Source of the DNA: a virus
Direction: 5' to 3' (one strand)
Virus record (IMG/VR): IMGVR_UViG_3300042876_000282
Coordinates: 23,238-87,237 of that record
Length of the DNA: 64,000 bases
The notes beneath the pieces are model-generated. The model was not told where the DNA came from. It saw nothing but the letters and a program-made list of their open reading frames with translations, and did no database searches. The position numbers and the translations under genes were made by a program. Position 1 is the first letter of the stretch, and the number at the start of each line of letters is the position of its first letter. This document shows positions 40,566 to 56,813 of the stretch, one piece after another.

Positions 40566-40805
40566 ATGCCGATCAAGTTCTCGAAGACGACGACGAAGCG
40601 CCACAACGGACAACCCGAGGGCGAGGTCTTGATCCTCGACGCCGACCGCGGCGAAATGTTGGGGGCGATCGTGGTGAGGTACGATGACCCGACATGGGCT
40701 CGCCGCGCGGATCGTTCCTACCACTGGCGCGTCGCGCGGTACGAGGTGACGATCTTCGCGATCGATCGCGACGACGTCGACCGCGACTTCGAGGTCGAAA
40801 TCTAG
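40566..40805 (+). CDS. Unknown 79-residue protein
   Basis: A beta-rich small protein (EVLILDADRG, then ARYEVTIFAIDRDD). AGGAAGGGATCCGACC precedes ATG. Its TAG stop is part of the next cassette's ATCTAGGGCTCGAAAC element, so gene end and terminator are fused. Confidence 0.6.
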   Translation: MPIKFSKTTTKRHNGQPEGEVLILDADRGEMLGAIVVRYDDPTWARRADRSYHWRVARYEVTIFAIDRDDVDRDFEVEI

Positions 40806-40841
40806 GGCTCGAAACTTTTTTTCGGGGGGCGTGTCTTTTTT
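40801..40841 (+). terminator. Cassette terminator (weak stem)
   Basis: CGAAA / TTTCG short stem with flanking GGGGGG and a following TCTTTTTT. Upstream C-run is missing here. Confidence 0.4.
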
Positions 40842-40843
40842 GG

Positions 40844-40915
40844 TTGCACCGTATATCTAGGCGAGGCATAGATAGGGGGTCAACGGGGCTCGCCCCGAGA
40901 AAGAGAAGACCGACC
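40844..40915 (+). promoter_or_regulatory. Hairpin-leader promoter P6 (short-spacer class)
   Basis: TTGCAC at 40844, TATATC at 40852, TAGATA at 40869, stem-loop CGGGG-CTCG-CCCCG at 40884-40897, then ATG 40916. Confidence 0.7.
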
Positions 40916-41378: not shown

Positions 41379-41744
41379 ATGACGGCTACGAACCCCGACC
41401 TTTGCTCGTGCGGCTGCACCTCGGTTCACGTCATCGCGCGACGTGAGACCGCCGACGGGCGCGCGCTCACCATCCTCTCCGACGGCGTGATCCTCGCCGG
41501 CCCTACGAAGCTCTCGCCGATGATCCGCGGGCTGGGCGCGCCGCGCTCGAACTACACCGCCGGGAAGCGTCTCGCCGCGGTCGCGCTCGTACTCGACGAT
41601 CTCTCGCTCTTCGACATGGCGGAGATCCCCGCCGTGATCAAGTGCGCGGAGACCACGATCGGCGCGCCGTTCACCGAGGGCGATTCCGCTCGACGCGTGT
41701 TCGTGCGTCGCTACATCGCGAAGCGTGCACGGGGGCAGGCATGA
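41379..41744 (+). CDS. Unknown 121-residue protein with N-terminal cysteines
   Basis: CSCGC near residue 9 suggests a metal site at the N-terminus. The remainder is mixed with a basic end. AAGGAACCCCCGACCATG precedes it. It overlaps the next gene by four bases. Confidence 0.6.
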   Translation: MTATNPDLCSCGCTSVHVIARRETADGRALTILSDGVILAGPTKLSPMIRGLGAPRSNYTAGKRLAAVALVLDDLSLFDMAEIPAVIKCAETTIGAPFTEGDSARRVFVRRYIAKRARGQA

Positions 41745-42550
41745 AGACCTCGACCTCGACCACTGAGCTACCGCCGCGTGCGCGTGCGCTGATCGCCGCG
41801 GTCCGCGCGCGTGGGAACGAACTCCCGCCGCGATGGGGCACGACGCCACGCGAAGACGTCGACGTCCGCGACGCTGCACACGAAGCGCACCACGCGTTCG
41901 TCGCCGATGCGCGGACGTGGGAACGCGAGACGATCCACCGACGCTTGCTCGCCGTACTCCCCGATCCCGCGTCGCGCTGGATCGATGAACTCGCCGCGCG
42001 CGTGGTAGAGCGCGAGGTCGTGATCGCGCTCGGGCTCGACCCCGGAGACTTCGAGGGATGGATCTTCACCTCGATCCGCGAAGCGGTGTCGGCGCGACTT
42101 CCGTTCGCGTCCGACTTCGAGCGCAACGTCGAGATCGCGCGGATGCTAGCGCGTCGACCCTCGACGAAGGAATCGATCGCGCGCGTGCTCGCGCTCGCCG
42201 ATGCTGCGACGCCGGCCGCGCGCGTGCCAACGCTCCCGACCTCGACGCCGCGCACGCGACGCCGCGCACGCGAGGAAGACTCGATCCGGATCTCGGGGTT
42301 GCAGCGCGACCACGAAGCCGCGCTCGAAGCCTACGCGCATCCCGCGATCCGCTCACCGGTCCCGATCGAGATCTGCGACCGTTCGCTCGTGCTCGATCCC
42401 CGCGATGCGTGGAAGGCACGCGCACGGCTGCGAGCGCTCGCCGAACGCGCGCACGACGACGGCGACGAAGACGCCGGGCACGCGCTCGCGGACTTGGCCG
42501 AACGCATCGCCGCCGCAGCCCGCTCTCGGGCTCGCGTTCTCCGCCCGTAG
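41741..42550 (+). CDS. Unknown 269-residue protein with HEAHH motif
   Basis: A helical protein. DAAHEAHHAFVADA near residue 48 contains HExxH, and ELAARVVEREV follows about 40 residues later, the spacing of some zinc metallopeptidases. This could be chance in a helical Ala/Glu/His-rich context. The C-terminus is Ala/Arg-rich. The TAG stop touches copy B of a 48-bp repeat. Confidence 0.5.
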   Translation: MKTSTSTTELPPRARALIAAVRARGNELPPRWGTTPREDVDVRDAAHEAHHAFVADARTWERETIHRRLLAVLPDPASRWIDELAARVVEREVVIALGLDPGDFEGWIFTSIREAVSARLPFASDFERNVEIARMLARRPSTKESIARVLALADAATPAARVPTLPTSTPRTRRRAREEDSIRISGLQRDHEAALEAYAHPAIRSPVPIEICDRSLVLDPRDAWKARARLRALAERAHDDGDEDAGHALADLAERIAAAARSRARVLRP

Positions 42551-42596: not shown

Positions 42597-42656
42597 CCGC
42601 CGGCATCGGGCGCCGTGCTCGGGCGCTGGCGCGGTCGCACGCTGCACCCCTCGAAA

Positions 42657-42763
42657 CGTAGCGGTTTCCGGGAATCGACACCTACCCCGAAAAAAAGTTC
42701 GACGAAGAGCTTGCAACCCGGAACGGGGGGACGTATATCTAGGGGGTCAACGGGGCTCGCCCC
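42657..42763. repeat. 107-bp inverted repeat, left copy
   Basis: Identical base for base to the reverse complement of 54661-54767. It contains an A-tract, promoter P7 and its leader stem-loop. The flanks on both sides differ. Confidence 0.9.
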
Positions 42764-42782
42764 ACCAACCAAGGACCGCACC
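42711..42782 (+). promoter_or_regulatory. Hairpin-leader promoter P7
   Basis: TTGCAA at 42711, 17-base spacer, TATATC at 42734, stem-loop GGGG-CTCG-CCCC at 42752-42763, then ACCAACCAAGGACCGCACC and ATG 42783. Its leader end differs from the AGAAAGAGAAG of most others. Confidence 0.8.
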
Positions 42783-43043
42783 ATGACGAAGACGCAGATC
42801 AAGAACGCTCTCACGAAGGCCGGCCTGCTCACGAGCGAGACCACGGTCTACGGTCGCGGAACGAACTTCACGGTCGAGACCACGAACGCGACCGCGGCTG
42901 CGATGCTCGAAGCCGCCGGGCTCGACGTTCGCGAGCTTCGCGGATGGCAGGGCGAGAGCCGTTCCTGGCGCGCGTTCGGCGCGGGCTTCGGCTCCGACGT
43001 CGCGAGCACGACGCGCGACCTTATCGCCGCGAACGTGGACTGA
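42783..43043 (+). CDS. Unknown 86-residue protein
   Basis: A small alpha/beta protein read from P7 (KTQIKNALTKAGL then FTVETTNATAAAMLEAAG). The pattern resembles small nucleotide- or DNA-binding phage proteins but is not assigned. Confidence 0.6.
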   Translation: MTKTQIKNALTKAGLLTSETTVYGRGTNFTVETTNATAAAMLEAAGLDVRELRGWQGESRSWRAFGAGFGSDVASTTRDLIAANVD

Positions 43044-43064
43044 ACCCCGCGCGCGCTCCGGCGC

Positions 43065-43083
43065 GTGTCTCCGACGAAGACAA
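43065..43083. repeat. 19-bp palindrome, copy 5
   Basis: GTGTCTCCGACGAAGACAA, one mismatch at the last base; lies between gene stop and the next ribosome site. Confidence 0.75.
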
Positions 43084-43121
43084 CCCCGCACCGATCCCGA
43101 ACTCGAAAGGAACCCCCGACC

Positions 43122-43520
43122 ATGTCTCACGACCTCCGCACCTTCCGCGCCGCGATGGACTCCTACGTCGCGGTCGTGCTCCGCCGCGATTCGCGCCGCG
43201 ACGTCGAAGCCGTCGCGCTCGTGCTCCCCGACCGAACCGAGGTCGCGATCCCGATGGGCTTGCACGACGACGACACCGAGATGTCCGCGGGCTTCGAGTG
43301 GGGCTATGGTGGGCAGGGTCCGCACGCGCTCGCGTTCGCGCTGATCGGGGTCGTGGCGAAGCGCACGCACCGGCCGGGGGCTGAGTCGGCGATCCGCGCG
43401 ATGGGCTATCGAGTCGGCGAGTTCACGCACGGCTTCGTCGCCGGGCTCGACCGCGGAGCGCGCGAGATCGGGATCCCCCGCTGGGAACTCGAAGCCGAGG
43501 TCGCGCGCTTCCGCGCGTGA
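43122..43520 (+). CDS. Unknown 132-residue protein
   Basis: A mixed alpha/beta protein with EWGYGGQGPHALAFALIG in the middle, a segment found in small phage proteins of unknown role. GAAAGGAACCCCCGACC precedes ATG. Probably co-transcribed from P7. Confidence 0.6.
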   Translation: MSHDLRTFRAAMDSYVAVVLRRDSRRDVEAVALVLPDRTEVAIPMGLHDDDTEMSAGFEWGYGGQGPHALAFALIGVVAKRTHRPGAESAIRAMGYRVGEFTHGFVAGLDRGAREIGIPRWELEAEVARFRA

Positions 43521-43524
43521 GAAT

Positions 43525-43576
43525 CCCCCCGGAAATCTAGGGCTCGAAACTTTTTTTCGGGGGGTGTGTCTTTTTT
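43525..43576 (+). terminator. Cassette terminator (best example)
   Basis: CCCCCCGGAAA pairs with TTTTCGGGGGG (11 bp with one G-T) and TCTTTTTT follows. It begins right after the 43122 stop. Confidence 0.75.
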
Positions 43577-43578
43577 GG

Positions 43579-43647
43579 TTGCACCGTATATCTAGGCAAG
43601 GCATAGATAGGGAGTCAAACGGGCTCGCCCGAGAAAGAAGACCGACC
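43579..43647 (+). promoter_or_regulatory. Hairpin-leader promoter P8 (short-spacer class)
   Basis: TTGCAC at 43579, TATATC at 43587, TAGATA at 43604, stem-loop CGGG-CTCG-CCCG at 43620-43631, then AGAAAGAAG and ATG 43648. Confidence 0.7.
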
Positions 43648-43983
43648 ATGACCACCGCCGCCAACATCATCGTCTCGCAGATCGGCCGCACCTCGTTCGC
43701 CATGATGGGCGCGAAGAACATTGTCGCCGCTGGCGACGTGCTCTCGTTCGACATCGGCGCGAACGCGCGGAAGATCTCGCACGTCTCGATCACGCTCGAC
43801 CCCTCCGACACCTACACCGTCCGCGTCTACAAGGGCGCGCGCGAGACGACGAAGCTCGACATGAAGACCGGCGAGTTCGTGACCCGCGGCGGACGCAAGC
43901 TCGCCGGCGAGTTCTCCGACGTCTACGCCGATGCGCTGCACTCGACGATCGAGAGCGCGACCGGGCTCTACCTCCGGTTCTGA
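43648..43983 (+). CDS. Unknown 111-residue protein
   Basis: A beta-rich protein (AMMGAKNIVAAGDVLSFDIG, then TYTVRVYKGARETTKLD) read from P8. No family recognised. Confidence 0.6.
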   Translation: MTTAANIIVSQIGRTSFAMMGAKNIVAAGDVLSFDIGANARKISHVSITLDPSDTYTVRVYKGARETTKLDMKTGEFVTRGGRKLAGEFSDVYADALHSTIESATGLYLRF

Positions 43984-44002
43984 ACCCAGCGCGCTCCGGC
44001 GC

Positions 44003-44021
44003 GTGTCTCCGACGAAGACAC
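44003..44021. repeat. 19-bp palindrome, copy 6
   Basis: GTGTCTCCGACGAAGACAC between the 43648 stop and the 44045 start; upstream sequence GCGCTCCGGCGC is shared with copy 5. Confidence 0.85.
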
Positions 44022-44044
44022 CTCGACCCCGAAGGGCTCCGACC

Positions 44045-44341
44045 ATGACGAACGCACGCAAGCCGACCCGCGAAGAGTACGCCGCGCAGCTAGCAGCGGC
44101 GCACGCGCGATGCGCCGAGACGACCGCGGCGGCTCTCGCGACGATGACCGTCGAAGCGGGGCTTCGCATGGTCGAAGCCGGCGACGCGCTCCGGGCGCTG
44201 ATCGAGGCGGACCCCTACGGCTACCGCGAGACCATCGCCCCCATGGTCTCCGACGACGAACGCGCACGGCAACGCGCCGCCGACCGCCTGATCCCGACGC
44301 CGCGACGGGCGCAACGCTGGCGCGCGGTCTCCCCGCGCTAG
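44045..44341 (+). CDS. Unknown 98-residue protein
   Basis: A helical protein (EEYAAQLAAAHARCAETTAA) with a basic end. GAAGGGCTCCGACC precedes ATG. No family recognised. Confidence 0.55.
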   Translation: MTNARKPTREEYAAQLAAAHARCAETTAAALATMTVEAGLRMVEAGDALRALIEADPYGYRETIAPMVSDDERARQRAADRLIPTPRRAQRWRAVSPR

Positions 44342-44360
44342 GTCGACCCGAAGATTTATA

Positions 44361-44377
44361 CCCTAGTATTTCTAGGG
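44361..44377 (+). terminator. Short palindromic terminator-like stem
   Basis: CCCTAG-TATTT-CTAGGG is a perfect 6-bp hairpin just before P9, without a strong T-run. Confidence 0.4.
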
Positions 44378-44404
44378 CGGAACGGAAATCGACATCGGAC
44401 CCCC

Positions 44405-44475
44405 TTGCACCGTATATCTAGGCAAGGCATAGATAGGGGGTCAAACGGGCTCGCCCGAGAAAGAGAAGACCTCCG
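44405..44475 (+). promoter_or_regulatory. Hairpin-leader promoter P9 (short-spacer class)
   Basis: TTGCAC at 44405, TATATC at 44413, TAGATA at 44430, stem-loop CGGG-CTCG-CCCG at 44446-44457, then ATG 44476. Confidence 0.7.
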
Positions 44476-44757
44476 ATGACCAACGCCGCCGCCAAGCTCA
44501 CCGCCGCCGACATGATCGCGATCGCGGAGTCGAACCCGTTCGTGGTTCGCGCCGCGGTGTGGAAGGGCTCGCTCGTGTTCGTGACGCTCCGGAACGACGC
44601 CGGCTACAGCTACCGGCACCTCCGCCCCGCGCTTGTGATCGACACCGCGACCGGCCGCGTGAACCGCCGCGACGTGGTCGATAACCGGCACTCGCGCGCG
44701 ATGCTCGACGCCGTGCGCGACCTCGAAGCGACCGCCCGCGCGGGCTTCGGTGCCTGA
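44476..44757 (+). CDS. Unknown 93-residue protein
   Basis: A mixed small protein read from P9 (VRAAVWKGSLVFVTLRNDAG, then a basic helix). No family recognised. Confidence 0.6.
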   Translation: MTNAAAKLTAADMIAIAESNPFVVRAAVWKGSLVFVTLRNDAGYSYRHLRPALVIDTATGRVNRRDVVDNRHSRAMLDAVRDLEATARAGFGA

Positions 44758-44793
44758 ACCCCTCGACCCCGACGACGAAAGGAACCCCCGACC

Positions 44794-45495
44794 ATGACTC
44801 CGAATCTCACGCGCTACGCCACGATCTCGAACTCCGATCTCGACGTCGAGATCGCGCGGCTCTCCGCGCTCGCTCTCCCCGGTCCCGCGCTCGACCTCGC
44901 GATCGACGAACGCGTCCGCCGGTCGCGCTACATGGACGCGGTCCTTCACGCGGTCCGGAGCGACCTCGAACACGCCTCGATCTTCGATGACCTCGACCCC
45001 GTGCTCGACTTCGTCGGCCCGACGACGGTGCTCCGGTTCGGTTGCTCGGGCTCGACATTCGGCGTCGGCTACGCGTACAACCTCGACGACGTCGACGCGA
45101 CGGTCGCGAGTATCCGCGACGCGCTCGCGAGGATGGCCGCGACGCCGGCGAAAGCGACGACGCCGGCACCGAGCAAGGTCTCGATCCGGCTTCCTGCCGG
45201 CGGTCTCGGTCTCGTGATCGATGAACTCTCGCGCGCTCCGGAGCGTGAGAGCTACGCGCGACTCACGCTCCGCGGTAGCGTGCTCACGGGCTCACGCGAT
45301 GACCTTCGAGACCTTGCCGACGGCGTCGAAGCCGTGAACTCCGACGAAGACCTCGCGATGCGTGCGGAGACCATCGCCGCGGATTCGCGCGGACTGCCGA
45401 CCGGCGACCGGCTCGACGCCCGCGCGGAGTTCATCGCGCGGGCTCTTCGGAAGTCTCGCGACGGCTTGCTCGACCGACTGCACCGCGGACGCTGA
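44794..45495 (+). CDS. Unknown 233-residue protein
   Basis: Two mixed domains joined by a Thr/Ala-rich linker near residue 115. GAAAGGAACCCCCGACC precedes ATG. It is the last rightward gene before the convergent junction. Confidence 0.6.
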   Translation: MTPNLTRYATISNSDLDVEIARLSALALPGPALDLAIDERVRRSRYMDAVLHAVRSDLEHASIFDDLDPVLDFVGPTTVLRFGCSGSTFGVGYAYNLDDVDATVASIRDALARMAATPAKATTPAPSKVSIRLPAGGLGLVIDELSRAPERESYARLTLRGSVLTGSRDDLRDLADGVEAVNSDEDLAMRAETIAADSRGLPTGDRLDARAEFIARALRKSRDGLLDRLHRGR

Positions 45496-45501
45496 ACCTC
45501 G

Positions 45502-45520
45502 GTGTCTTCGTCGAAGACAC
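45502..45520. repeat. 19-bp palindrome, copy 7 (perfect)
   Basis: GTGTCTTCGTCGAAGACAC is a perfect palindrome with a central T. It lies between the two convergent gene ends (45495 and 45543). Confidence 0.9.
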
Positions 45521-45542
45521 GCACCGCGCCGCGCTCGGGCGC

Positions 45543-46361
45543 TCACCCCGCGAGTTCGGGAATCGGTGTGCCGTCGAGAACGGTCGAACGCAGCGCACGC
45601 CGGGCGAACGCTTTGTTCGCGATCTCAAGCCAGCGCTGGCCCTCTTCCGGCGACATGTCCGCAAGCTGAGGGTCGGGTAGCGCTCCGACATGCCCGACGA
45701 TCGAGGTCGGCTCCCCGGCCGCGAGCCGCTCAAGCTGCACCGCGATCCGCGCGGTCTCCGCGGTCGTCTTCGCGATGGTCGAGACCATGGTCAAGGCGCG
45801 CAGGGCCTTGGTCGCGTCCATGCCGCTTCCACCGGCAAGCTCGCGACCAACGATCTCCGACAGCGCGACCGCGCCCCGGAGTAGGTTCGCGTTCAAGGTC
45901 GCCATCGCCAACGCCGTCGTCCGATTCGCCTTCGCCAGACGCGCTTCGTCGGACTTGCTCACGACACCGGCGCCGATCGCTTTCACGACCCGATCGGCTT
46001 CCACCTTCGCAGTCTGAACCCGTACCTCCGCGAGTTCTTCCGCCGACCGCGCCAACGTCGCGCGGCGCTCAAGCTCCGGATCGTCGCCGACCATCGCCGC
46101 GCGTAGTTTCATCCGCTCACGTTCGAGCAACGGCGGCAACCCCGCCGACGGCAACCCCACTAGCTCGAACTCTTCGACCTCCGCGACGCCGATCCCCGTA
46201 CGGACCGCGATCTCTGCGGTCTCGACACCTCGACGGTACATCGCCCACACCCGTGCATAGCGACGCTCCGCTGCGATGTCCACGCTAGGACCGATCGCGC
46301 TCGCGTTCGTGCTCGGGACTCGTGTTCGCGTTCGTGCTCGGGGCTCGCTTGGGTTCGTCAT
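45543..46361 (-). CDS. HTH protein, candidate terminase small subunit
   Basis: A 272-residue protein. Residues about 32-60 form a helix-turn-helix-like unit (RYARVWAMYRRGVETAEIA then TGIGVAEVEEFEL), and the rest is a long helical region ending with VSTIAKTTAETARIAVQLE. Small terminases combine an N-terminal HTH with helical oligomerisation parts. It sits 9 kb from the large terminase and on the other strand, which is unusual. A good TATACT -10 lies eight bases before its ATG, suggesting a near-leaderless mRNA. Confidence 0.5.
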   Translation of the reverse strand: MTNPSEPRARTRTRVPSTNASAIGPSVDIAAERRYARVWAMYRRGVETAEIAVRTGIGVAEVEEFELVGLPSAGLPPLLERERMKLRAAMVGDDPELERRATLARSAEELAEVRVQTAKVEADRVVKAIGAGVVSKSDEARLAKANRTTALAMATLNANLLRGAVALSEIVGRELAGGSGMDATKALRALTMVSTIAKTTAETARIAVQLERLAAGEPTSIVGHVGALPDPQLADMSPEEGQRWLEIANKAFARRALRSTVLDGTPIPELAG

Positions 46362-46369
46362 GCACCGAG

Positions 46370-46375
46370 AGTATA
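46370..46375 (-). promoter_or_regulatory. -10 for 45543 gene
   Basis: TATACT on the minus strand, eight bases before ATG. A matching -35 is weak. Confidence 0.5.
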
Positions 46376-46628
46376 CCGCGCCGCGGTCACGTACCAGGGC
46401 TTGACCACCGACAACCCCACGCGAACCACGCACCGACCACCACCGAATCCCCCCGCCGAACCCGCGAGATCCTCGGTTTCAGGCAGAACACGCAGATTTC
46501 GGTACCCACGAAGGGGTTCCCCCGCGACCTCGGCGCCGCCGGCGCTTCGCCGACTGCCGACCGGAAACCCCCTGAAATCAAGCTCCCCCCGCGTGCGGCT
46601 CGATCTCGCGTGCTCCCGGCGCGCGAAC

Positions 46629-46647
46629 GTGTCTCCGACGAAGACAC
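46629..46647. repeat. 19-bp palindrome, copy 8
   Basis: GTGTCTCCGACGAAGACAC in the non-coding region. Confidence 0.85.
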
Positions 46648-46687
46648 GCGCTCCGCGCAGCATCCCCGCTCGACGTGCTCGGGCTCG

Positions 46688-46706
46688 GTGTCTCCGACGA
46701 AGACAC
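46688..46706. repeat. 19-bp palindrome, copy 9
   Basis: GTGTCTCCGACGAAGACAC, 59 bases after copy 8. Confidence 0.85.
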
Positions 46707-46827
46707 CGCCGCGGCTCGACGTGCTCGACCTCGGCTCCCGCCGGTGCGTGCGAGGTAGGGCGCCGGACTCGGGGTGTGCTCCCGCCGGTGCTCGTGCTCG
46801 GGGTCGACCTCGGCTCGTGCTCGGTGC

Positions 46828-46846
46828 GTGTCTTCGTCGGAGACAC
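46828..46846. repeat. 19-bp palindrome, copy 10
   Basis: GTGTCTTCGTCGGAGACAC, opposite orientation to copies 8 and 9. Confidence 0.85.
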
Positions 46847-47022
46847 CGTCGGCGCACTACCCCCGGACATGCTCCCCGGCGTCGGGTGCTCGGGACCGCT
46901 GGCGCCCCGCTACGGGCTCCGCCGGGCTCCGGACGGCGCGAGGTAGCGACCCGACCCGCCGGGCGCCTTCTCGCCCCCTTGCCGGGCCGGCGTCGGGGTA
47001 TCCCGCTCGGGGTGCTCGGTGC

Positions 47023-47041
47023 GTGTCTTCGTCGGAGACAC
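47023..47041. repeat. 19-bp palindrome, copy 11
   Basis: GTGTCTTCGTCGGAGACAC, in the same GTGCGTG context as copy 10. Confidence 0.85.
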
Positions 47042-47701
47042 CTCCGCCGGGCTCGGTGCTCGACGTGCTCGGGCTCCGACTCGGGCCGTCGGCCGGCGTC
47101 GGGCTCGGGGTGCTCCCCCTCGGGCTCGGTGCTCGGTGCTCCCCGACCGCTCCGACGCTCCCCGAACCACGGGCCGGAAACCCCCCGAACCCCGGAAAAT
47201 CCCCCGACCGAAGGGGTCTATAAGCGCGCGTAAGACAGAGTAGTTACTCTTACTTCTAGATCTGTATCTGGCGCGCCGCCGAGCGCGTGCCCGCGTGCGC
47301 GTAAGAGCACCGATCGTGCCAACCCCGGAACGTCGACCCAACCCCGGACCTCGACGCCGAATCCCCCGGCAACCCCGACCCAGGGCACGACCCCCCATCG
47401 CCGACCCCGATTCCCGCCCCGAGAAGCCCCCTAGAAGCCGCGTTCGCGACCTCGACGCCACAACCCCCGCACCCCGACCCCCAAACGCCAGGAAGACCCC
47501 TTCTCGTCGCATCCCCCGAAATCCTTACCTTGTCCTACATCGCCGGACCCCCAGGGGGGCGGGGGTCGCGTGCACGCGTGCGCGCGCGTGCACGAGGGTA
47601 GCCTCCCACACTCCCCGTGCCCGTACAGAAATCGAGGACTACCCCGAAAATAAGGGCCGAAAAGGTCGGGGGTGGGGTTCGCGCGGGGTCCGGGAGGTCG
47701 C

Positions 47702-47718
47702 GATTTTTGCGAAAAATC
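47702..47718 (-). terminator. Palindromic terminator of the leftward operon
   Basis: GATTTTT-GCG-AAAAATC is a perfect 7-bp palindrome overlapping the last bases of the 47717 gene, the end of the leftward cluster. It lacks a GC-rich stem, so the assignment is tentative. Confidence 0.4.
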
Positions 47719-48085
47719 AGAACGGGCAATCCGGGTCATCGGGCGAGCGTGTCTCCGACGAAGACACAGGCTCGGGCTCCGACTCCGGCGCGGGCTTGCG
47801 ACCGATGGGGATGCAGCGGAGCGCGAGATCGCGGAGGTGAGCGTTCATCCGGTTGCGGGCGTCGAAGACCTTCGCCGCGGGCGTCGGACCGACGGGCGCG
47901 AACGCGACCCATGCGACGGCTTGCAGGCGAAGAAGTTCGTCGGCGAGGGGTTCGAGTTCTTCGATCCGAGCAAGAGCCCGCGCGGGGTCGTTCGCGATCT
48001 CGATCCGGGCTTGCGCTTCGCAGCGTAGACACCGGCTCGGACGCAAGCCCTCGATCTCGACACCGTGAATACAGAACGTGGTCAT
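47717..48085 (-). CDS. Unknown protein with N-terminal cysteines (122 residues)
   Basis: CLRCEA near residue 20 and a cysteine before it suggest a small metal site. A helical middle follows and a Pro/Glu/Ser tail that contains a 19-bp palindrome. Its ATG overlaps the stop of the upstream gene. Function unknown. Confidence 0.55.
   Translation of the reverse strand: MTTFCIHGVEIEGLRPSRCLRCEAQARIEIANDPARALARIEELEPLADELLRLQAVAWVAFAPVGPTPAAKVFDARNRMNAHLRDLALRCIPIGRKPAPESEPEPVSSSETRSPDDPDCPF
47749..47767. repeat. 19-bp palindrome, copy 12
   Basis: GTGTCTCCGACGAAGACAC; read on the minus strand inside the 47717 gene's tail as VSSSET. Confidence 0.85.
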
Positions 48086-48531
48086 GGTGCGACCTCGCGT
48101 CGGAGGCGGTCGGCGGTGTGGCGAGGGAGGTCGGCGCGAGCGTGGTCGAGTTCGTCGAGCGCTTGTCGGCCGAGTGGGTTGATGAACCCGCGGAAGGTCT
48201 CGACGGTCAAGCCGCCGGCGATCGAGATCAGCCCTTCGCGAGCGAGGCATCGGCAGGCGCGAGAGATCGAAGCACGTTCAGCCGGCGAGAACGTGCTGCG
48301 GGTCGTGGGAACCTTGCGAAAGACCACCAGCCCGATCTGCCCTCCCGTTGCCGTCGTCGACTCCGACACAAGCGCAAGCGCTCGAAGGCAGCGCTCCGCG
48401 GTCGTGATCTGCCGAAGCCGTAGCGCAGTCGGACACTCACACCGCATCGGATCATGCGCCCTCGCAACGCACACCGGCGCGCCGCTCTCGCACCGGCGTC
48501 GGCGAATCAGGCTCTCACTCCGCGTCGTCAC
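48082..48531 (-). CDS. Unknown 149-residue protein, possibly winged-helix
   Basis: A basic, cysteine-containing N-terminal third (RRRRCESGAPVCVARAHD, MRCECP) and a C-terminal part with helix-turn-helix-like spacing (FSPAERASISRACRCLAREG). The GTG at 48531 overlaps the end of the upstream gene; an ATG at 48447 is an alternative. Regulator function is a guess. Confidence 0.5.
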   Translation of the reverse strand: MTTRSESLIRRRRCESGAPVCVARAHDPMRCECPTALRLRQITTAERCLRALALVSESTTATGGQIGLVVFRKVPTTRSTFSPAERASISRACRCLAREGLISIAGGLTVETFRGFINPLGRQALDELDHARADLPRHTADRLRREVAP

Positions 48532-48991
48532 CGAGTACCTCGATCGTGAGCTTCCCGAGTAGCTCTCCGAACTCGTGTTCGAGAACCCTCGCGACTTCCT
48601 TCGACCCTCGATCACGTTCGTGCTCGACACGTTCGAGCGCGATCCGCGAGAACGACGCCGCGACCTTCGCGAACGCTCTCACCTCGTCCGATGCGGTCGC
48701 GCTCTCGCTCGACGACTTCGACTCCGACACGAGGCACTCGCACACGAGACACGGTCGGTCCGATTCGTCGATCTCGTCGCAGACACACGCCGGCTCGGCG
48801 CTCGCGTCGTCGAGCAACGGCAGAACGTCGTCCGGCCATGTCGCATCGCGCCACGCCTCGAACGCCCGATCTTTCGCGTGAAGATTTTCGAGCGCGCGGT
48901 CTTCGTCGTACGTCTTCCACGCGCTCGCGGCAGCTTCTCCCAACTGCCGAAGACGCGCGATGGATTCGGCTCGGCTTCGTGCGTGGTTCAT
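48515..48991 (-). CDS. Unknown 158-residue protein
   Basis: An acidic helical protein with CVCDEIDESDRPCLVCECLV in the middle (four cysteines, possible metal site) and a coiled-coil end. It overlaps both neighbours. Confidence 0.55.
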   Translation of the reverse strand: MNHARSRAESIARLRQLGEAAASAWKTYDEDRALENLHAKDRAFEAWRDATWPDDVLPLLDDASAEPACVCDEIDESDRPCLVCECLVSESKSSSESATASDEVRAFAKVAASFSRIALERVEHERDRGSKEVARVLEHEFGELLGKLTIEVLGDDAE

Positions 48992-49842
48992 CGCGAGCCT
49001 CCCTCGGTGTCGTCGAGCTTCAACGCATGACGAAGGTTGTCGGCCGCGATGCGAAGCGCGAGTTCGCCGGCGCGCGTGCTCGGCTCCGGCAGCGCTCGAA
49101 CCCGTTCGAGGTCGGTCGGCGTCGGGGGCGTGGGTTCGACGTCGTCGAGCAAATCGCGGAGCGTGGACTTCGTCCAACGCACGCCGTCGCCGAACGAATC
49201 CGACCACGGTCCGCGTGGCACGAGGTCTTCGCCGTAGGTGCTGGCGAAGGTCGAGATCTTCGCCAGCGTGTTCGACATCGTCGTGAACTCCGCGAGCTTC
49301 GGCGCCGCGATCACGACCGCGCCACGAACGAGTTTGGCGTTGGCGTCGCGCAGCCCTTCGTACTTCCGCACGAGTTCGCCGACCGCGCGAAGGGCTTGCC
49401 CGTTGTGGTAGGCGGGTTCGACCGCCCACGCGAGCGCGGCGGAAGCGTCGAGCTTGATCGAGCGAAGCTCTTCCAGCACGTCGTCGAGTTCGCGACGAAC
49501 CTTCTCGACCTCGCCCGAGAGTCGAACCTGCTGATCTCCGCGAGACCTCGCCAATGCCTGAGCGGTCGCGAGTTCTTCTCGAAGTCGATCCACGCGCAGC
49601 CGTTCGAGGTCACGCTCTTTCACGGCGAGGTCGTTGAACTTGTTCGCGAGGTCAAGCTCCAGGCGAAGGCTCACGACCTCGCGCGTGAGCGCCAGCGGAT
49701 CGAGAGCTTGCGGCTTCGGCGAGTTCGTGGGGTGTCGCCGATGCGCGCCGGCGATGACGCCGCACGCTGGGCAGACGTCCGCGGGTTCGAGCGCGACGAG
49801 CGGCAGAGAGCAAGCGCTGGGATTGATCATGTCGTCGGTCAT
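48988..49842 (-). CDS. Unknown coiled-coil protein (284 residues)
   Basis: CPACGV near the N-terminus is a half zinc ribbon. Residues about 55-140 form a long coiled coil, followed by a compact helical domain. Function unknown. It overlaps its upstream neighbour by four bases, part of a single leftward transcript. Confidence 0.55.
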   Translation of the reverse strand: MTDDMINPSACSLPLVALEPADVCPACGVIAGAHRRHPTNSPKPQALDPLALTREVVSLRLELDLANKFNDLAVKERDLERLRVDRLREELATAQALARSRGDQQVRLSGEVEKVRRELDDVLEELRSIKLDASAALAWAVEPAYHNGQALRAVGELVRKYEGLRDANAKLVRGAVVIAAPKLAEFTTMSNTLAKISTFASTYGEDLVPRGPWSDSFGDGVRWTKSTLRDLLDDVEPTPPTPTDLERVRALPEPSTRAGELALRIAADNLRHALKLDDTEGGSR

Positions 49843-50411
49843 GGTTCCTCCGGTAGTCCAAGGCGATTGCGAAGGGCGCGGATCTCGTTTCCGATCGCTC
49901 GCGTCGTTCGACCCCGACCCGCGGAGTCGTCGCCGGCGAGCACGACCGCGATCTCACTGAACGCATCGAGCCGTGCTCGGGCTCGCAGGCTTTCGAGCCA
50001 ACGTCCGAACGCGTCACCGTTCGACGCGACCGCCATCGCTCGAAGCGCCATCACTTCGTCGTCCGTCCAATCTCGATCTCCGCCGACGCCGCCGTTGTGC
50101 GGGCTCTTGTGAATCCGCTCGATCGCGTTCAGCGCGCGAACGTTCACGCGTTGACGCTCCGCACGCGCTCGAAGCTCCGGCGTCGGGATTTCGAGCGCTG
50201 GCGCGGAGTAGTGGCGATCGCCGACGGGGCGCCCGTACTTCCGCGAGTAGCGAACGCCGCCGACCACGATCTGAGTCGCGGTCGCGTGCTCGACCTTCCC
50301 GAACCTGATCGTCGATTCCCGTTGGGAAAGGAAGCCCGCGCGCGAGTCGCGCCACGCGACTTCGTCGCCGACCTTCAAGTCGTCGCGCCAGTGTTGTTCG
50401 ATGGTCTTCAC
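49839..50411 (-). CDS. Unknown 190-residue protein
   Basis: The N-terminal part (HWRDDLKVGDEVAWRDSRAG) looks like a small SH3-like beta barrel. A helical Arg/Ala-rich C-terminus follows. It overlaps both neighbours by four bases. No family recognised. Confidence 0.55.
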   Translation of the reverse strand: MKTIEQHWRDDLKVGDEVAWRDSRAGFLSQRESTIRFGKVEHATATQIVVGGVRYSRKYGRPVGDRHYSAPALEIPTPELRARAERQRVNVRALNAIERIHKSPHNGGVGGDRDWTDDEVMALRAMAVASNGDAFGRWLESLRARARLDAFSEIAVVLAGDDSAGRGRTTRAIGNEIRALRNRLGLPEEP

Positions 50412-50740
50412 GAGTTCGCACCCTTCCCGTCGACGACACGCCCTTCCCGACGACGCACCCGCGCGTCGTCGAGTTCCGCGCGGAGCTTCTCGACCTCACC
50501 GTCGACGACGCGCCAACCCCTCGGTGAGTAGTAGATCAGCGTCCCGGACTTGCGGAGCGCCTGCAGCCGCTTCTCGACGACGCTGATCGCGGCATAGCCC
50601 GCGGTGTCGAATCCGTAGCGAGCGCCGACGGCTTCGATGGTCTCCCGCACGAGCGGGACGATCACGCGCGTTCGTCGGTTCCCCGCGCGGATGGTCTCGA
50701 CGATCTTCGCGTCGATCTCTTCGTAGTGGTGGTGATTCAT
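50408..50740 (-). CDS. Unknown 110-residue protein, winged-helix-like
   Basis: Residues 10-75 (KIVETIRAGNRRTRVIVPLV, then a helix and a beta hairpin GTLIYYSPRGWRVV) have winged-helix-like spacing. The start at 50740 follows AGGAAAGATCG on the minus strand. DNA-binding role possible. Confidence 0.55.
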   Translation of the reverse strand: MNHHHYEEIDAKIVETIRAGNRRTRVIVPLVRETIEAVGARYGFDTAGYAAISVVEKRLQALRKSGTLIYYSPRGWRVVDGEVEKLRAELDDARVRRREGRVVDGKGANS

Positions 50741-50922
50741 CGTTCGATCTTTCCTCGTGTGACGTGCCATCGGTGGCACACCGGGCATAGGTACGAGCGC
50801 AGTCGTGCGCCGTTGGTTCGGTTCGCGCGACGCGCTTGCTTCTCGCTCGCGTATCCGCGCTCGCGGCAGGTAGGGATCACGACATCGGTTCGCCGCGCGT
50901 CGCGCGGCTCGTCGTCGTTCAT
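50737..50922 (-). CDS. Zinc-ribbon protein with CPVCHRWH motif (61 residues)
   Basis: A short protein with one upstream cysteine (PTCRERGY) and CPVCHRWHVT near the end. Small phage proteins with this pattern are common and bind zinc; their role is unknown. It overlaps the flanking genes by four bases. Confidence 0.6.
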   Translation of the reverse strand: MNDDEPRDARRTDVVIPTCRERGYASEKQARRANRTNGARLRSYLCPVCHRWHVTRGKIER

Positions 50923-51620
50923 CGGCCCCTCGCTTTCATCGCAGCCGACACGAGACCGAGAGCACGCACGATCTCGAAGCCGCGCGCGGTGTCGTCGGGA
51001 CCGAGCGGCGCGCCGGCGTCGTTCGGGTCGAGAAACGCGATCGCTTGCTCGACGTCTTCGGAGGTCGCGCCGGCGGTCTCGAACACCTCCGGCGCGGAGG
51101 GCAGCCCGACACCGCGCAGCCGATCCACGGCGTCGTCGATCCGTGCTTCGAGTCGCTTCACGCGCGCGCACCATCGCGCGTTCTCTCGCTCGCTCTCCGC
51201 GAGCTTCTCGCGAAGCTCTTCGACCGAGATCGCGGAGAGCTTCCGCTCGGTGTCCAAGCCTTCGATCGCGAGCGCGACGCGTTGCAGCGCTTCACGCGTT
51301 CGCGTGTCGCCGTGGTCGATCGCGCGCTCGATCACGATCAGGTCGATCACGACGTTGTGGACACTGACGTTCATCGCTTCCAGCCTTTCCGCGCGCTTCC
51401 TCGCGACACGTTCCCGAGCCGCGCGCGCGATCTCTCCGGAGCGTGGAAGTTCGAGAACGAGCTTCGCGAGCGCGGCTCGTTCGGTGTCGTTCATCCAGTC
51501 GTGTTCCGTGGGGTAGAGCATGAGCGACGCCGGTGCAGCCGAACGCATCCGCAAGCGCGCCGGCGCGAGCACGCGATCGATCTCCGCGCCGATGCGCTCG
51601 ATCCGCTCGACGTCATCCAT
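50919..51620 (-). CDS. Unknown helical protein (233 residues)
   Basis: A largely helical and coiled-coil protein (residues 110-165). The ATG at 51620 overlaps the upstream stop (ATGGATGA). No family recognised. Confidence 0.55.
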   Translation of the reverse strand: MDDVERIERIGAEIDRVLAPARLRMRSAAPASLMLYPTEHDWMNDTERAALAKLVLELPRSGEIARAARERVARKRAERLEAMNVSVHNVVIDLIVIERAIDHGDTRTREALQRVALAIEGLDTERKLSAISVEELREKLAESERENARWCARVKRLEARIDDAVDRLRGVGLPSAPEVFETAGATSEDVEQAIAFLDPNDAGAPLGPDDTARGFEIVRALGLVSAAMKARGR

Positions 51621-52338
51621 CGTCGCGTGCCTTCCTCGCGGCATCGATCCACGCCGCCAGCGCTTCGAGCTTCTCCGCGTTCGCGGTGCGCTCGTCGTGC
51701 GAGAGTTCGACGGCGTCGGAGCGCTCGACCACGCACGCGAGAAGTTCGAGCACGCCGGGATCGGGGAAGGTGTCGAAGTCGGGATCCTTCACGCGACGAA
51801 GCGCGGCGTTGTCGAGTTCGAGCGTGCGAGCGTATTCGTGTGCGGTCGCGAGCACGTCGTCGAGCTTCTCGATCCGCGCGTGCAAGTTCGCGATCGGTCC
51901 ACACTCGCCCGAGATCTTCACGAGGTCCGCGTCCGACGTTTCGAGGTGGTAGCGCGTGCGGAGTTCGTGAAGAGCGCTTCCGATCTCACCGAGTTCGGAG
52001 TCGACGCGAACCGACTCGCGATCGAACGTCGTCACGGAATCGCGCAAGCCCTCGAACCCGATCACGGCTTCGCGCGCGAGAACCGTTACGACCTCCGGCG
52101 GCAGCGTGTAGCGCTTCAAGTCGTCGGCGAGCCGACGCGCTTCGTCGCGGAAGAGGTTCGAGCGATTCTCTTGCGTGGTCGCGCGACGCTCGGCTGCGAC
52201 GCGTGCCGCGTGTTCCGCGCGCAGCGCGGCGACGAGTTCGCGCCCGATGCGGCGGTACGCACCGAACGAGAACCCGCGGTTGAGCTTCTCTTCGATCGCG
52301 TCGAGGTTCAGGACATGGATCTTCGGATCGTCGGTCAT
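51613..52338 (-). CDS. Unknown helical protein (241 residues)
   Basis: Coiled-coil rich throughout, similar in style to the two other long helical proteins of this cluster (48988, 50919), though not obviously homologous. Operon context only. Confidence 0.55.
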   Translation of the reverse strand: MTDDPKIHVLNLDAIEEKLNRGFSFGAYRRIGRELVAALRAEHAARVAAERRATTQENRSNLFRDEARRLADDLKRYTLPPEVVTVLAREAVIGFEGLRDSVTTFDRESVRVDSELGEIGSALHELRTRYHLETSDADLVKISGECGPIANLHARIEKLDDVLATAHEYARTLELDNAALRRVKDPDFDTFPDPGVLELLACVVERSDAVELSHDERTANAEKLEALAAWIDAARKARDDG

Positions 52339-52604
52339 CGTGGGGGCGTTCCTTTCGCGGGCTTGGCGCCGTATGCAGCAAGCGCAGCGTGCGCACGCAT
52401 GACGGCTTGGACGAGATCAGCGGGCACGCTCACGCGCGCGAGGAAGTCGAGCGGCGTCCCGACGTCGAAGTCGGCTCGACCCGAGCGGAGCGCGGACTCG
52501 ACGAGCGCGCGCTCCGCGGTCTCGACATCGCGCACGAGATCAGCGCGACGGCTCGCACGGCGAAGACGATCGGAGGTGTAGCTTCTTTGCTTCGTGGTCG
52601 GCAT
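52335..52604 (-). CDS. Unknown 89-residue protein
   Basis: A basic N-terminal 25 residues and a helical remainder. ATGA overlap with its downstream neighbour; 16 bases separate it from the next gene upstream. No family recognised. Confidence 0.55.
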   Translation of the reverse strand: MPTTKQRSYTSDRLRRASRRADLVRDVETAERALVESALRSGRADFDVGTPLDFLARVSVPADLVQAVMRAHAALAAYGAKPAKGTPPR

Positions 52605-52620
52605 CGTTCGCCCCGAACCA

Positions 52621-52941
52621 TCATCCGACGCTCGGAAGGGAACGCGAGCGCGAACGAATCCGCGGACGGTTCTCGGTGTCGAACTCGGGCCGACGCTCGA
52701 ACTCGACGCGGTCGAACTCGACGCTCTCTCGCAGCGCGCGGATCGAATCGAAGCCGTCGACGTCGCGAGAGAGCAGCGCGCGAACCGAACGCTCTCCGAC
52801 GCCGGTCTCGTACGCGGTGGTGCAGCCGGAGATTCGAGCCGCGTGCTTCGAGAGCGACGCGCGAACCTGATTCGCGCGGATGTCCACGATCACGGGAACG
52901 AACTTCGAGCGCTTGCGGATGATGTAGACGGTCGTGGACAT
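52621..52941 (-). CDS. Unknown 106-residue protein
   Basis: A beta-rich start (TTVYIIRKRSKFVPVIVDIR) and an Arg-rich end. GAAAGGAACCCCGTCATG in sense is the local ribosome-site cassette. Function unknown. Confidence 0.6.
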   Translation of the reverse strand: MSTTVYIIRKRSKFVPVIVDIRANQVRASLSKHAARISGCTTAYETGVGERSVRALLSRDVDGFDSIRALRESVEFDRVEFERRPEFDTENRPRIRSRSRSLPSVG

Positions 52942-53030
52942 GACGGGGTTCCTTTCGATGCGAGCCGCGGAGGTCGCGGGCTTCGTGCGAGCGTCGAGCG
53001 CGTCGACGACCGAGGCGAAGCGCGCGACGT

Positions 53031-53369
53031 TCAGCCGACGATCTCGATCGTGTTCTTCGTGACGGAGGTCTCGACCTCGTTCGCGTTCGACCAGAACGTG
53101 ATCGACTCGAAGCGCGGGTCGTCGTGCGACACGAGCGGGAACACGAGAACGAGATCGCCCTTCTCGCCGGCGGTTCCGAGCTTCGTGCGAACGTCGCGAC
53201 GAAGGCGACCGATGCGCGCGCCGGCGACGCGCCCGAGGTAGAACCCGCGGTTCTGAGACTGGCCTGGATGCCGCGCGATCAAGGCTTCGATCGCGTTCTG
53301 ATAGCTCGCGACGAGCGACGAAAGAACGCAGGCGCGAGCGGCAACGGAGAGCGTGGTGGTGTTCGTCAT
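53031..53369 (-). CDS. Unknown 112-residue protein
   Basis: A mixed alpha/beta protein read from leftward promoter P10. Codon use fits the cluster. No family recognised. Confidence 0.6.
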   Translation of the reverse strand: MTNTTTLSVAARACVLSSLVASYQNAIEALIARHPGQSQNRGFYLGRVAGARIGRLRRDVRTKLGTAGEKGDLVLVFPLVSHDDPRFESITFWSNANEVETSVTKNTIEIVG

Positions 53370-53442
53370 CGGAGGTCTTCTCTTTCTCGGGGCGAGCCCC
53401 GTCGGTGAGCTTAGATATACGTCGAAACGGTGGGGGCGTCAA
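53370..53442 (-). promoter_or_regulatory. Hairpin-leader promoter P10 (minus)
   Basis: On the minus strand: TTGACG (53437-53442), 17-base spacer, TATATC (53414-53419), stem-loop CGGGG-CTCG-CCCCG at 53388-53401, AGAAAGAGAAG, then ATG at 53369. Confidence 0.8.
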
Positions 53443-53458
53443 GCGTCCCGTACGCGAA

Positions 53459-53689
53459 TCAGTCGAAGCACGCGATCGCGGCTTCGAGTTCGGGGAGCCG
53501 ATGCCCCGCATCCTCGATCTTCGAGAACTCGAACGCGATCCCGTGCATCGCGGAGACGACGTCGACGGGCGAGCCCGCTTTCCACGAGCGGTGGATCGAA
53601 CTCACGAACCCGTTTCCGGTTTCGATGTCCAGCATCCCGGCGAAGCGGTAGGCGATGCGGATGGCAGCGATCTGCGAAAGCGTGAACAT
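53459..53689 (-). CDS. Unknown 76-residue protein
   Basis: A small helical protein read from P11. The TLSQIAAIRIAYRFAGMLD start is amphipathic. No family recognised. Confidence 0.6.
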   Translation of the reverse strand: MFTLSQIAAIRIAYRFAGMLDIETGNGFVSSIHRSWKAGSPVDVVSAMHGIAFEFSKIEDAGHRLPELEAAIACFD

Positions 53690-53763
53690 GCGGGAGACTC
53701 CGGGTTGGTGGGGCGTGCCCCGTTGGTGAGATTAGATATACGCTAGACCGCGGGAGCCCGCAA
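53690..53763 (-). promoter_or_regulatory. Hairpin-leader promoter P11 (minus)
   Basis: Minus strand: TTGCGG, 17-base spacer, TATATC (53735-53740), stem-loop GGGG-CACG-CCCC at 53710-53721, then ATG 53689. A different loop (CACG) from most. Confidence 0.75.
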
Positions 53764-53779
53764 GCGGGAATCGACCGCT

Positions 53780-53818
53780 CCCCGAAAAAAAGTTTCGAGC
53801 CCTAGATTTCCGGAAGGA
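53780..53818 (-). terminator. Cassette terminator (minus)
   Basis: Reverse of the 37988 element; stem CCGGAAA / TTTTCGG, T-run on the minus strand. It follows the 53822 stop. Confidence 0.5.
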
Positions 53819-53821
53819 TTC

Positions 53822-54301
53822 TCACGCGGCCGCGGCGGAGTCGTGCACGACCTCGACGTTGCGAGCGTCGATCCAGATCGGATCGTCGGAGCCGGCGGTC
53901 TTGAACCCCACGCGCCAGCCGAACTTCGTTTCGCCGTACCAGAACACGATCCCGGCGGTACCCTTCGCGACCTTGCGACCGCGGACGACCACGATCGAGC
54001 GACCGCGCAGCGGAAGCGCGGCTTCGCGTGCGGCTTCCTCCGCGGCAACCCGCGCGGCTTCCTCCGCGCGCTTCGCAGCGTGTGCAGCGCGCACGGCTTC
54101 GATCTCCGCGTGGTACGCCGCGACGACGTCCGCCGGTGCGTCGACCTGAACTTGCGCGGGGTTCGAGACGTAGACCGAAGCGCGCGCGCCATCGGCGCCC
54201 ATGACGATCGCGTAGTAGTCGGTGATCCCGTCGTCGTAGTAGCGCTCGATCGCGATGGTGGTTCCGACGTGCGAGAAGGTGTCGTTGTGGTGGCGGATCA
54301 T
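53822..54301 (-). CDS. Unknown 159-residue protein
   Basis: A mixed N-terminal domain, a helical Ala/Glu middle (HAAKRAEEAARVAAEEAA) and a beta-rich C-terminal part. Read from P12. No family recognised. Confidence 0.6.
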   Translation of the reverse strand: MIRHHNDTFSHVGTTIAIERYYDDGITDYYAIVMGADGARASVYVSNPAQVQVDAPADVVAAYHAEIEAVRAAHAAKRAEEAARVAAEEAAREAALPLRGRSIVVVRGRKVAKGTAGIVFWYGETKFGWRVGFKTAGSDDPIWIDARNVEVVHDSAAAA

Positions 54302-54375
54302 GGTGCGGTCTCCGGGTTGGTGGGGCGAGCCCCGTTGGTGAGATTAGATATACGGGCGATCGGTTCGGGTGTCAA
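54302..54375 (-). promoter_or_regulatory. Hairpin-leader promoter P12 (minus)
   Basis: Minus strand: TTGACA (54370-54375, consensus -35), 17-base spacer, TATATC (54347-54352), stem-loop GGGG-CTCG-CCCC at 54322-54333. Upstream lies the A-tract CCGAAAAAAAGTTTCG shared with P3. Confidence 0.85.
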
Positions 54376-54404
54376 GCGTTCGGCGAAACTTTTTTTCGGG
54401 GGGT

Positions 54405-54641
54405 TCAGTTCCAGCCGATCGCGAGACCGAGGTCGGAGACCTCTTCGACGTAGTCCGCGCCGGCGTCGGGGAAGGTGACGTACCAGCGTTCGACCGCCGC
54501 GGAGTCGACGCCGGCGAAGCCGAGGATCGTCGCGTTGCGACCGTCGGTCCGCACCATCGAACCGGGGGCGAAGCGGTGCCACGCGCGGAACGGGGGGACG
54601 AAGAGGTTCGAGCGGTTCGCGGTGCGGATCGTGTTCGACAT
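54405..54641 (-). CDS. Unknown 78-residue protein
   Basis: A beta-rich small protein read from P13 (SMVRTDGRNATILGFAGVD). It ends just before the UP-like A-tract of P12. No family recognised. Confidence 0.6.
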   Translation of the reverse strand: MSNTIRTANRSNLFVPPFRAWHRFAPGSMVRTDGRNATILGFAGVDSAAVERWYVTFPDAGADYVEEVSDLGLAIGWN

Positions 54642-54713
54642 CGGAGGTCTTCTCTTTCTCGGGGCGAGCCCCGTTGACCCCCTAGATATACGTCCCCCCG
54701 TTCCGGGTTGCAA
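54642..54713 (-). promoter_or_regulatory. Hairpin-leader promoter P13 (minus)
   Basis: Minus strand: TTGCAA (54708-54713), 17-base spacer, TATATC (54685-54690), stem-loop at 54660-54673, AGAAAGAGAAG, ATG 54641. Same core as P7; both are inside the 107-bp repeat. Confidence 0.8.
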
Positions 54714-54767
54714 GCTCTTCGTCGAACTTTTTTTCGGGGTAGGTGTCGATTCCCGGAAACCGCTACG
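54661..54767. repeat. 107-bp inverted repeat, right copy
   Basis: Exact reverse complement of 42657-42763. The two copies point inward and bracket about 12 kb. Confidence 0.9.
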
Positions 54768-54797
54768 AATCAGGGGGTCAAGCGTGCGGTTCGACGT

Positions 54798-55154
54798 TCA
54801 GCCGTGGGCCTTCCCATGGTTCCGACCGCCGCACGCGCACTCGCACTTGTGGCCGGTCGCGTGCTCGCAACGCGAATCGCAAGCGATCGAAGCGACCACG
54901 CGCCCGAGAACGGGCTTCAGCGTGATCCGAGTTCCGCACGCGCACGGGACCACGCACGCGACTTGCGGTGAACCGTAGGTGCCGGGCGCGAGTCGCGCGC
55001 CGGTGTCGGTCACGCCGACGATGTTCGAGTAGCTTCCGACGTATTCGATCGCGGTGAGCAGCGCGGAGCGCTTCGCGCCGCACGCTTTGCACTTGCCGTT
55101 CATGCGGCGGGGGCGGATCGCATCGGTGCGGAGCGTGGTCGAGTCGGTGGTCAT
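54798..55154 (-). CDS. Cysteine-rich protein (118 residues)
   Basis: Two possible zinc sites: CKACGAKR near residue 22 and CACGTR plus CDSRCEHATGHKCECACGG toward the end. A basic, His-containing tail. Read from P14. No family recognised. Confidence 0.6.
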   Translation of the reverse strand: MTTDSTTLRTDAIRPRRMNGKCKACGAKRSALLTAIEYVGSYSNIVGVTDTGARLAPGTYGSPQVACVVPCACGTRITLKPVLGRVVASIACDSRCEHATGHKCECACGGRNHGKAHG

Positions 55155-55221
55155 CGTCGTTCTTCCTTCCGGGGCGAGCCCCTGATTCCCCGAACGTATA
55201 TCTAACCTCGTGCCCCGTCAA
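55155..55221 (-). promoter_or_regulatory. Hairpin-leader promoter P14 (minus, inverted box)
   Basis: Minus strand: TTGACG (55216-55221), 17-base spacer, TACGTT (55193-55198), stem-loop GGGG-CTCG-CCCC at 55171-55182, then ATG 55154. The TATATCTA box is present but on the opposite strand. Confidence 0.65.
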
Positions 55222-55247
55222 GCGGGGTGTCGAAGAAAGTTCGGGGC

Positions 55248-55266
55248 GTGTCTCCGACGAAGACAC
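55248..55266. repeat. 19-bp palindrome, copy 13
   Basis: GTGTCTCCGACGAAGACAC between divergent P14 and the terminase start, 46 bases before ATG. Confidence 0.85.
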
Positions 55267-56811: not shown

Positions 56812-56813
56812 CG

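Follow-up and report, generated by a model that had tools for sequence, protein, structure and literature searches.

In T4-type phages, promoter-early stem-loop cassettes (PeSLs) are, as cited in PMC4503421 and PMC3950731 (originally Arbiol et al. 2010; Comeau et al. 2014), multi-copy intergenic units of a promoter and a stem-loop, found in the accessory region and linked to the shuffling of small genes. The SAS/ESAS repeats of cluster K mycobacteriophages lie just before small-gene starts and mostly face the same way; an inverted repeat is present in about half of these elements, and the consensus of that inverted repeat differs between subclusters (PMC3203893). In the haloarchaeal virus HGTV-1 a conserved promoter-like motif with an inverted repeat precedes most genes of one genome arm, and these motifs were proposed to promote shuffling (PMC3950731). 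Here we analyse a 64,000-nt stretch of an unisolated phage (the window; bases 23238–87237 of an 87,237-bp IMG/VR record), in which a perfect 107-bp inverted repeat brackets 12 kb. We consider it probable that both arms of the repeat are copies of one dispersed regulatory cassette, placed in inverted orientation by a separate inversion of neighbouring DNA, and that the repeat is not a switch.

A preliminary description of the window had reported the repeat, and its identity held for all 107 bases of 42657–42763 against the reverse complement of 54661–54767, with 107 bases as the maximal exact extension on both sides. If mismatches are tolerated, the match reaches outward to 42636 and 54788 (128 nt, 95%). 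No exact repeat in the record is longer than this pair, and a chance origin of a 107-base match in 64 kb is not credible. Orientation and gene map agree with the further claims that a promoter in each copy points inward and that the interval holds a small terminase candidate (the probable TerS), a low-coding region and leftward genes. The arms and the genes behind them are:

42657–42763, plus strand: arm 1 of the perfect 107-bp repeat, before g89; A-tract, –35, 17-bp spacer, –10 and leader hairpin
54661–54767, minus strand: arm 2, identical in sequence to arm 1, before g109
42636–42656, plus strand: outer extension of arm 1, matching 54768–54788 with mismatches
42783–43043, plus strand: g89 (86 aa), behind arm 1; its weak homologue r50 in the related genome G001 lies behind a G001 cassette
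54405–54641, minus strand: g109 (78 aa), behind arm 2

The two arms are members of a promoter-cassette family that is dispersed in about 14 copies. The family core, CGTATATCTAG, occurs 14 times at ≤1 mismatch, where 0.06 occurrences are expected. Each arm consists of an A-tract (CCCCGAAAAAAAG), a –35 of CTTGCA, a 17-bp spacer, a –10 of TATATCTAGG and a leader hairpin (GGGGCTCGCCCC), after which come a leader end and the start codon; the –35, the –10 and the hairpin are common to all 13 cassettes that were aligned over their whole length, and in these 13 the gene starts 48–66 nt past the conserved CGTATATCTA. The leaders read GAGAAAGAGAAG or ACCAACC. Every copy directly precedes a gene of the codon-model gene map and shares its strand, rightward copies leading rightward genes and leftward copies (53412, 53733, 54345 and 54683, plus a divergent copy near 55195) leading leftward ones. 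Membership of the arms in a multi-copy family supports the alternative reading in the preliminary description, namely that the promoter module was recently duplicated. The remaining members are:

12990–13100, plus strand: cassette before the UvrD-like helicase gene (alignment)
29340–29437, plus strand: cassette before g61 (alignment)
37990–38111, plus strand: cassette before g78, with a second –10-like motif in its spacer (alignment)
40229–40350, plus strand: cassette before g83, whose G001 homologue r114 is likewise behind a cassette (alignment, homology)
40793–40915, plus strand: cassette before g85 (alignment)
43528–43647, plus strand: cassette before g91, whose G001 homologue r48 is likewise behind a cassette (alignment, homology)
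44354–44475, plus strand: mosaic cassette before g93 (alignment, nearest-neighbour comparison of parts)
53370–53465, minus strand: cassette before g106 (alignment)
53690–53813, minus strand: cassette before g107 (alignment)
54302–54400, minus strand: cassette before g108 (alignment)
55155–55240, minus strand: divergent cassette-like promoter of g110 (TTGACG, 17 bp, TACGTT), with a GGGGCTCGCCCC leader
56813–56932, plus strand: cassette before g112 (alignment)

Five cassettes (38047, 40286, 40850, 43585 and 44411) carry a second –10-like motif, CGTATATCTAGG, in the spacer between TTGCAC (–35) and the aligned –10 (CATAGATAGG or CATACATAGG); it is possibly an operator or a second promoter. The leader hairpin may serve to protect the 5' end of the mRNA or act in translation. 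Folded as single RNAs, the leaders had unremarkable z-scores, so the case for the hairpin is one of conservation and not of energy; that conservation extends to the loop-closing pair, which is exchanged from C-G to U-A in G001. Rfam gave no match within 42–56 kb, and a terminator scan found none at the window cassettes, where the hairpin lies downstream of the promoter.

The cassettes are mosaic. A cassette's nearest neighbour differs between its upstream part, its promoter core and its leader: the promoter of cassette 44411 is 100% identical to that of 40286, while the two upstream parts are unrelated (33%), and its leader is 100% identical to those of 54683 and 53412. The arms themselves agree to the very end of the hairpin, beyond which they continue into the family's two different leader types, so that arm 1 has the 54345/53733 type of leader although its remainder equals arm 2. 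We infer from this pattern that cassettes have undergone recombination or conversion with each other and that one boundary is the hairpin. Other cassette pairs have exact runs of 68, 62 and 44 bases (direct) and 39 bases (inverted) in common, and the 107-bp pair is therefore the extreme of a series. A possible agent is encoded in the window:

22061–23194, plus strand: UvsX-like recombinase, possibly acting in short-homology recombination

Besides this recombinase the phage encodes two helicases, one DnaB-like and one UvrD-like, and an SbcC-like protein. Proteins resembling sheath and tube, which were recognised by reading, indicate a tailed phage of the contractile type. Relatives, all from unisolated phages in IMG/VR, were found with the DNA polymerase and the DnaB-like and UvrD-like helicases as queries; the large terminase (TerL), as a single query against IMG/VR, recovered none. 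The comparisons drew on G001 (113.6 kb; DNA polymerase 53%, TerL 51%), G002 (92.5 kb), G003 (107 kb), G007 (80.8 kb) and G008 (93 kb). G004, G005 and G006 have mainly the helicase in common with the window and a different layout, and were excluded from synteny. Megablast against isolated phages gave no match, and a phage collection held no close isolated relative, the matches of TerL and of the UvrD-like and DnaB-like helicases to isolates being remote. Compared with G001, ~10 kb or more, probably head genes, is absent after g120 at the window end (62048–64000), and the record therefore seems incomplete.

Searches of IMG/VR with the exact cassette core and with a gapped cassette pattern returned only the window's own record, and a cassette sequence search gave one match in a Henriciella genome. 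The relatives have cassettes of their own. G001 carries eight on the same plan in other sequence (CTGGCG ... TATACCTAAATC ... GGGGCTTGCCCC or GGGGTTCACCCC ... AAGGAG), all on the gene strand. G007 carries seven (AAAAGTGTTGCGCG ...), all codirectional, two of which form a perfect 106-bp direct repeat, and G002 has a 127-bp cassette duplicate (98%), also a direct repeat; in both of these genomes the duplicated unit contains a palindrome plus a promoter. The G001 homologues of g83, g91 and, weakly, g89 are each behind a G001 cassette, in a different order. This indicates that a cassette stays with its gene, that the order shuffles and that the cassette sequences of a genome turn over jointly.

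The relatives also bear on how the arms came to face each other. In both relatives where a g95-like gene was found (G001 and G003), it immediately precedes TerL and has the same orientation. The window has g95 on the opposite strand to TerL, 9 kb off, at the far end of a leftward block, and leftward genes are nearly lacking in G001, G002, G007 and G008. The features concerned are:

45543–46283, minus strand: g95, probable small terminase (TerS) by synteny
55312–56811, plus strand: TerL, large terminase (PHROG 38, E 1e-62)
45543–55154, minus strand: leftward gene block, putatively inverted relative to the ancestor
45502–45520, plus strand: palindrome at the putative left breakpoint (GTGTCTTCGTCGAAGACAC)
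55248–55266, minus strand: palindrome at the putative right breakpoint (GTGTCTTCGTCGGAGACAC)

Virtual re-inversion of 45.5–55.25 kb only, between the palindromes at 45502 and 55248, gave the order TerS–palindrome–TerL, as in G001, where a palindrome lies 46 bp past TerS. It also removed the leftward block, gathered the cassettes into one cluster at 38–47 kb, and made the 107-bp copies direct repeats on the plus strand (42657 and 46002), 3.3 kb apart. By contrast, re-inversion at the 107-bp arms left TerS still away from TerL and turned six rightward genes leftward. The comparison points to a separate inversion of ~9.7 kb with breakpoints at ~45.50–45.54 and 55.16–55.31 kb; the relatives do indicate an inversion, but not the flip at the arms that had been proposed. 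Each breakpoint interval (47 and 157 bp) has one of the record's 17 palindromes. Such a coincidence at both would arise by chance at ~0.5%, an estimate made from 10 palindromes in 8.8 kb of intergenic DNA that ignores any palindrome preference for operon ends. These positions are suggestive of crossover at the palindromes.

The history that best accounts for the repeat would run as follows. The cassette, made up of an A-tract, sigma-70-like –35 and –10 elements, a short 5' leader containing a hairpin rich in G+C, and the beginning of a small gene, would serve transcription and translation of small accessory genes. To judge from the relatives, all cassettes would ancestrally have been codirectional with the genes. 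Their parts would have been swapped or copied among sites, as the mosaic identities suggest, and the 107-bp identity, which stops precisely at the leader hairpin, the point of attachment of two alternative leader ends, would be the most recent or best preserved such event. The ~9.7-kb inversion, whose two breakpoint intervals each hold the 19-bp palindrome of this genome, would have flipped the block between TerS and g110, so that cassette repeats once direct, and 3.3 kb from each other, became inverted; the duplication would predate it. As a by-product the cassettes would provide short homologies for shuffling, and recombination may keep them alike, as proposed for T4 PeSLs.

Several points weigh against this history. 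The cassette sites were not listed by a generic promoter scan, because the scan demands T as the last base of the –10 hexamer; their promoter activity is predicted from sequence. TerS is the sole anchor of the leftward block to its ancestral position; for the rest of the block, the relatives have no clear homologues upstream of TerS. The identity of TerS itself comes from synteny (its structure model was poor, pLDDT 48, and unused). The ancestral order is drawn from relatives at ≤51% TerL identity, none of them close. G003 has leftward blocks of its own, which means that such blocks can arise repeatedly, and the cassette duplication could be later than the inversion. The G003 blocks lie at 58.8–67.0 and 76.7–79.5 kb. 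In the latter, cassette-like repeats occur in either orientation and the convergent end carries a CGATAGCTTAGCTATC palindrome; the two blocks are possible further inversions in this phage family.

We judge it unlikely that the repeat maintains two genome isomers, with the arms recombining through a UvsX-type phage activity and the 12-kb segment flipped in part of the population. Homology lengths such as 107 bp are generally enough for phage homologous recombination, and the phage has both the perfect inverted homology and a gene for a UvsX-like recombinase; the arms may undergo homologous recombination at low frequency. Inversion there, however, does not explain how the segment is oriented relative to the relatives, and it alters no promoter–gene pair, as each arm has its own promoter. 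Promoter and leader hairpin stay beside the gene they lead. The promoter-module duplication of the preliminary description is supported, whereas no positive evidence emerged for its pair of isomers flipping at the arms.

Less probable still is an assembly artefact, the metagenome assembler having set the segment in the wrong orientation at the repeat. The sequence comes from an IMG/VR contig; usual reads or read pairs exceed the length of the repeat, and assembly graphs with k < 107 are ambiguous at a repeat of this length. Yet the ancestral order results from neither orientation of the arms, so the leftward TerS block cannot be the product of a flip there, and in both cases the promoter–gene pairs stay intact. 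That the repeat exists is not in question, because its flanks differ.

Inverted repeats with inward promoters superficially resemble invertible elements, but a regulated switch (phase variation) at the 107-bp repeats is very improbable, and we rejected it. With a promoter and leader on each arm, no gene would gain or lose a promoter on flipping, and there would be no switch of expression. Many more cassettes lie inside and outside the segment, whose 12 kb is far above the usual switch size, and no tyrosine- or serine-recombinase (PF00589, PF00239) was matched in the record, itself incomplete. The invertible region of phiCh1 likewise has inverted repeats in a tailed-virus genome; inversion there alters the product of a tail-fibre gene (PMC3950731), whereas at the window arms no gene would change.

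That a transposon or another mobile element of 12 kb has the arms as its terminal inverted repeats, as long perfect inverted repeats at both segment ends might suggest, is largely refuted and barely conceivable: the arm sequence also stands singly before other genes, no target-site duplication is visible at the outer edges, no transposase was among the block proteins scanned, and the segment contains the probable TerS.

The palindromes are a finding in themselves. Each of the related genomes carries a palindrome particular to it, dispersed and nearly invariant. In the record it is the 19-bp sequence given above for the right breakpoint (17 copies), which in the window is at 7068, 16233, 25167, 35508, 43065, 44003, 45502, 46629, 46688, 46828, 47023, 47749, 55248, 58053 and 60495. 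Its counterparts are GTGTTCACCCGGGTGAACAC in G001 (21 copies), ACCGCACGGCGCCGTGCGGT in G002 (26), CCGCAACACGTGTTGCGG in G008 (34), TTGTCGCCCCGGGGCGACAA in G003 (12) and CGTTTACCCGGGTAAACG in G007 (13). They are located within and between genes, and their spacing is more even than random in G001, G002 and G008. One possibility is that they are sites for a phage-encoded DNA-binding protein. A broader proposal, which we regard as rather doubtful, is that these palindromes (~12–34 copies per genome), and not the promoter repeats, are the crossover sites of block inversions, and that palindromes and promoter cassettes both evolve in concert with trans-acting phage proteins. The gene at 58852–60297 combines a ParB-like N-terminal part with a DNA methyltransferase C-terminal part, and its product is a candidate for recognising the palindromes. 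Beside the probable TerS, the low-coding region 46284–47716 has four palindromes within 420 bp, with a fifth at 47749, and G001 has three around its TerS; the region is a possible packaging or origin site.

Two further observations concern neighbouring features. A tRNA-Ala(cgc) call on the minus strand at 41800–41883 falls inside a rightward gene (41741–42550) and is probably a false positive. TerL of G003 (L041, 50685–53381 in flipped coordinates) is an 898-aa frame with ~340 extra residues past its N-terminal part, a candidate intein or other insertion.

Among published systems the closest kind is the PeSL, followed by SAS/ESAS, and by analogy the window's system would work like these. Two marks of PeSLs are present here: many near-identical promoter/stem-loop copies between genes of a variable region (14 sites, alignment, hairpin) and gene shuffling between related genomes (g83, g91 and weakly g89; G001). 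The duplicated unit in G002 and G007, a palindrome stem-loop plus promoter, may resemble the PeSL unit. In PeSLs the stem-loop is a terminator before the promoter, whereas the constant stem-loop of the window is a short leader hairpin past it; moreover, the cassette sequences here are genome-specific and the matches give no hint of a T4-like phage. We do not file the window cassettes as PeSLs proper because the terminator part was not seen in the window copies and nothing points to a T4-like phage. The SAS/ESAS repeats are similar in lying before small-gene starts and in being tied to the same gene families across genomes (PMC3203893). Their sequences differ, the unit here is longer (~100–125 bp, with –35, –10 and leader), and no GGGATAGGAGCCC-type motif was found just before the start codons, so that the architecture alone is similar. 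The motif of HGTV-1 is archaeal TATA-type and belongs to another virus group (PMC3950731).

The kind of system is known; the phage family is new. In this unisolated family, promoter cassettes of ~100 bp are almost identical within a genome and different between genomes. They remain with the same small genes, and can leave long direct or inverted repeats that resemble switches; relatives should be compared before such repeats are called invertible elements. The window provides a case in which nearby repeats can be distinguished from an inversion and from its probable crossover sites, and the genome-specific palindromes, a side finding, are possibly of more interest than the repeat.

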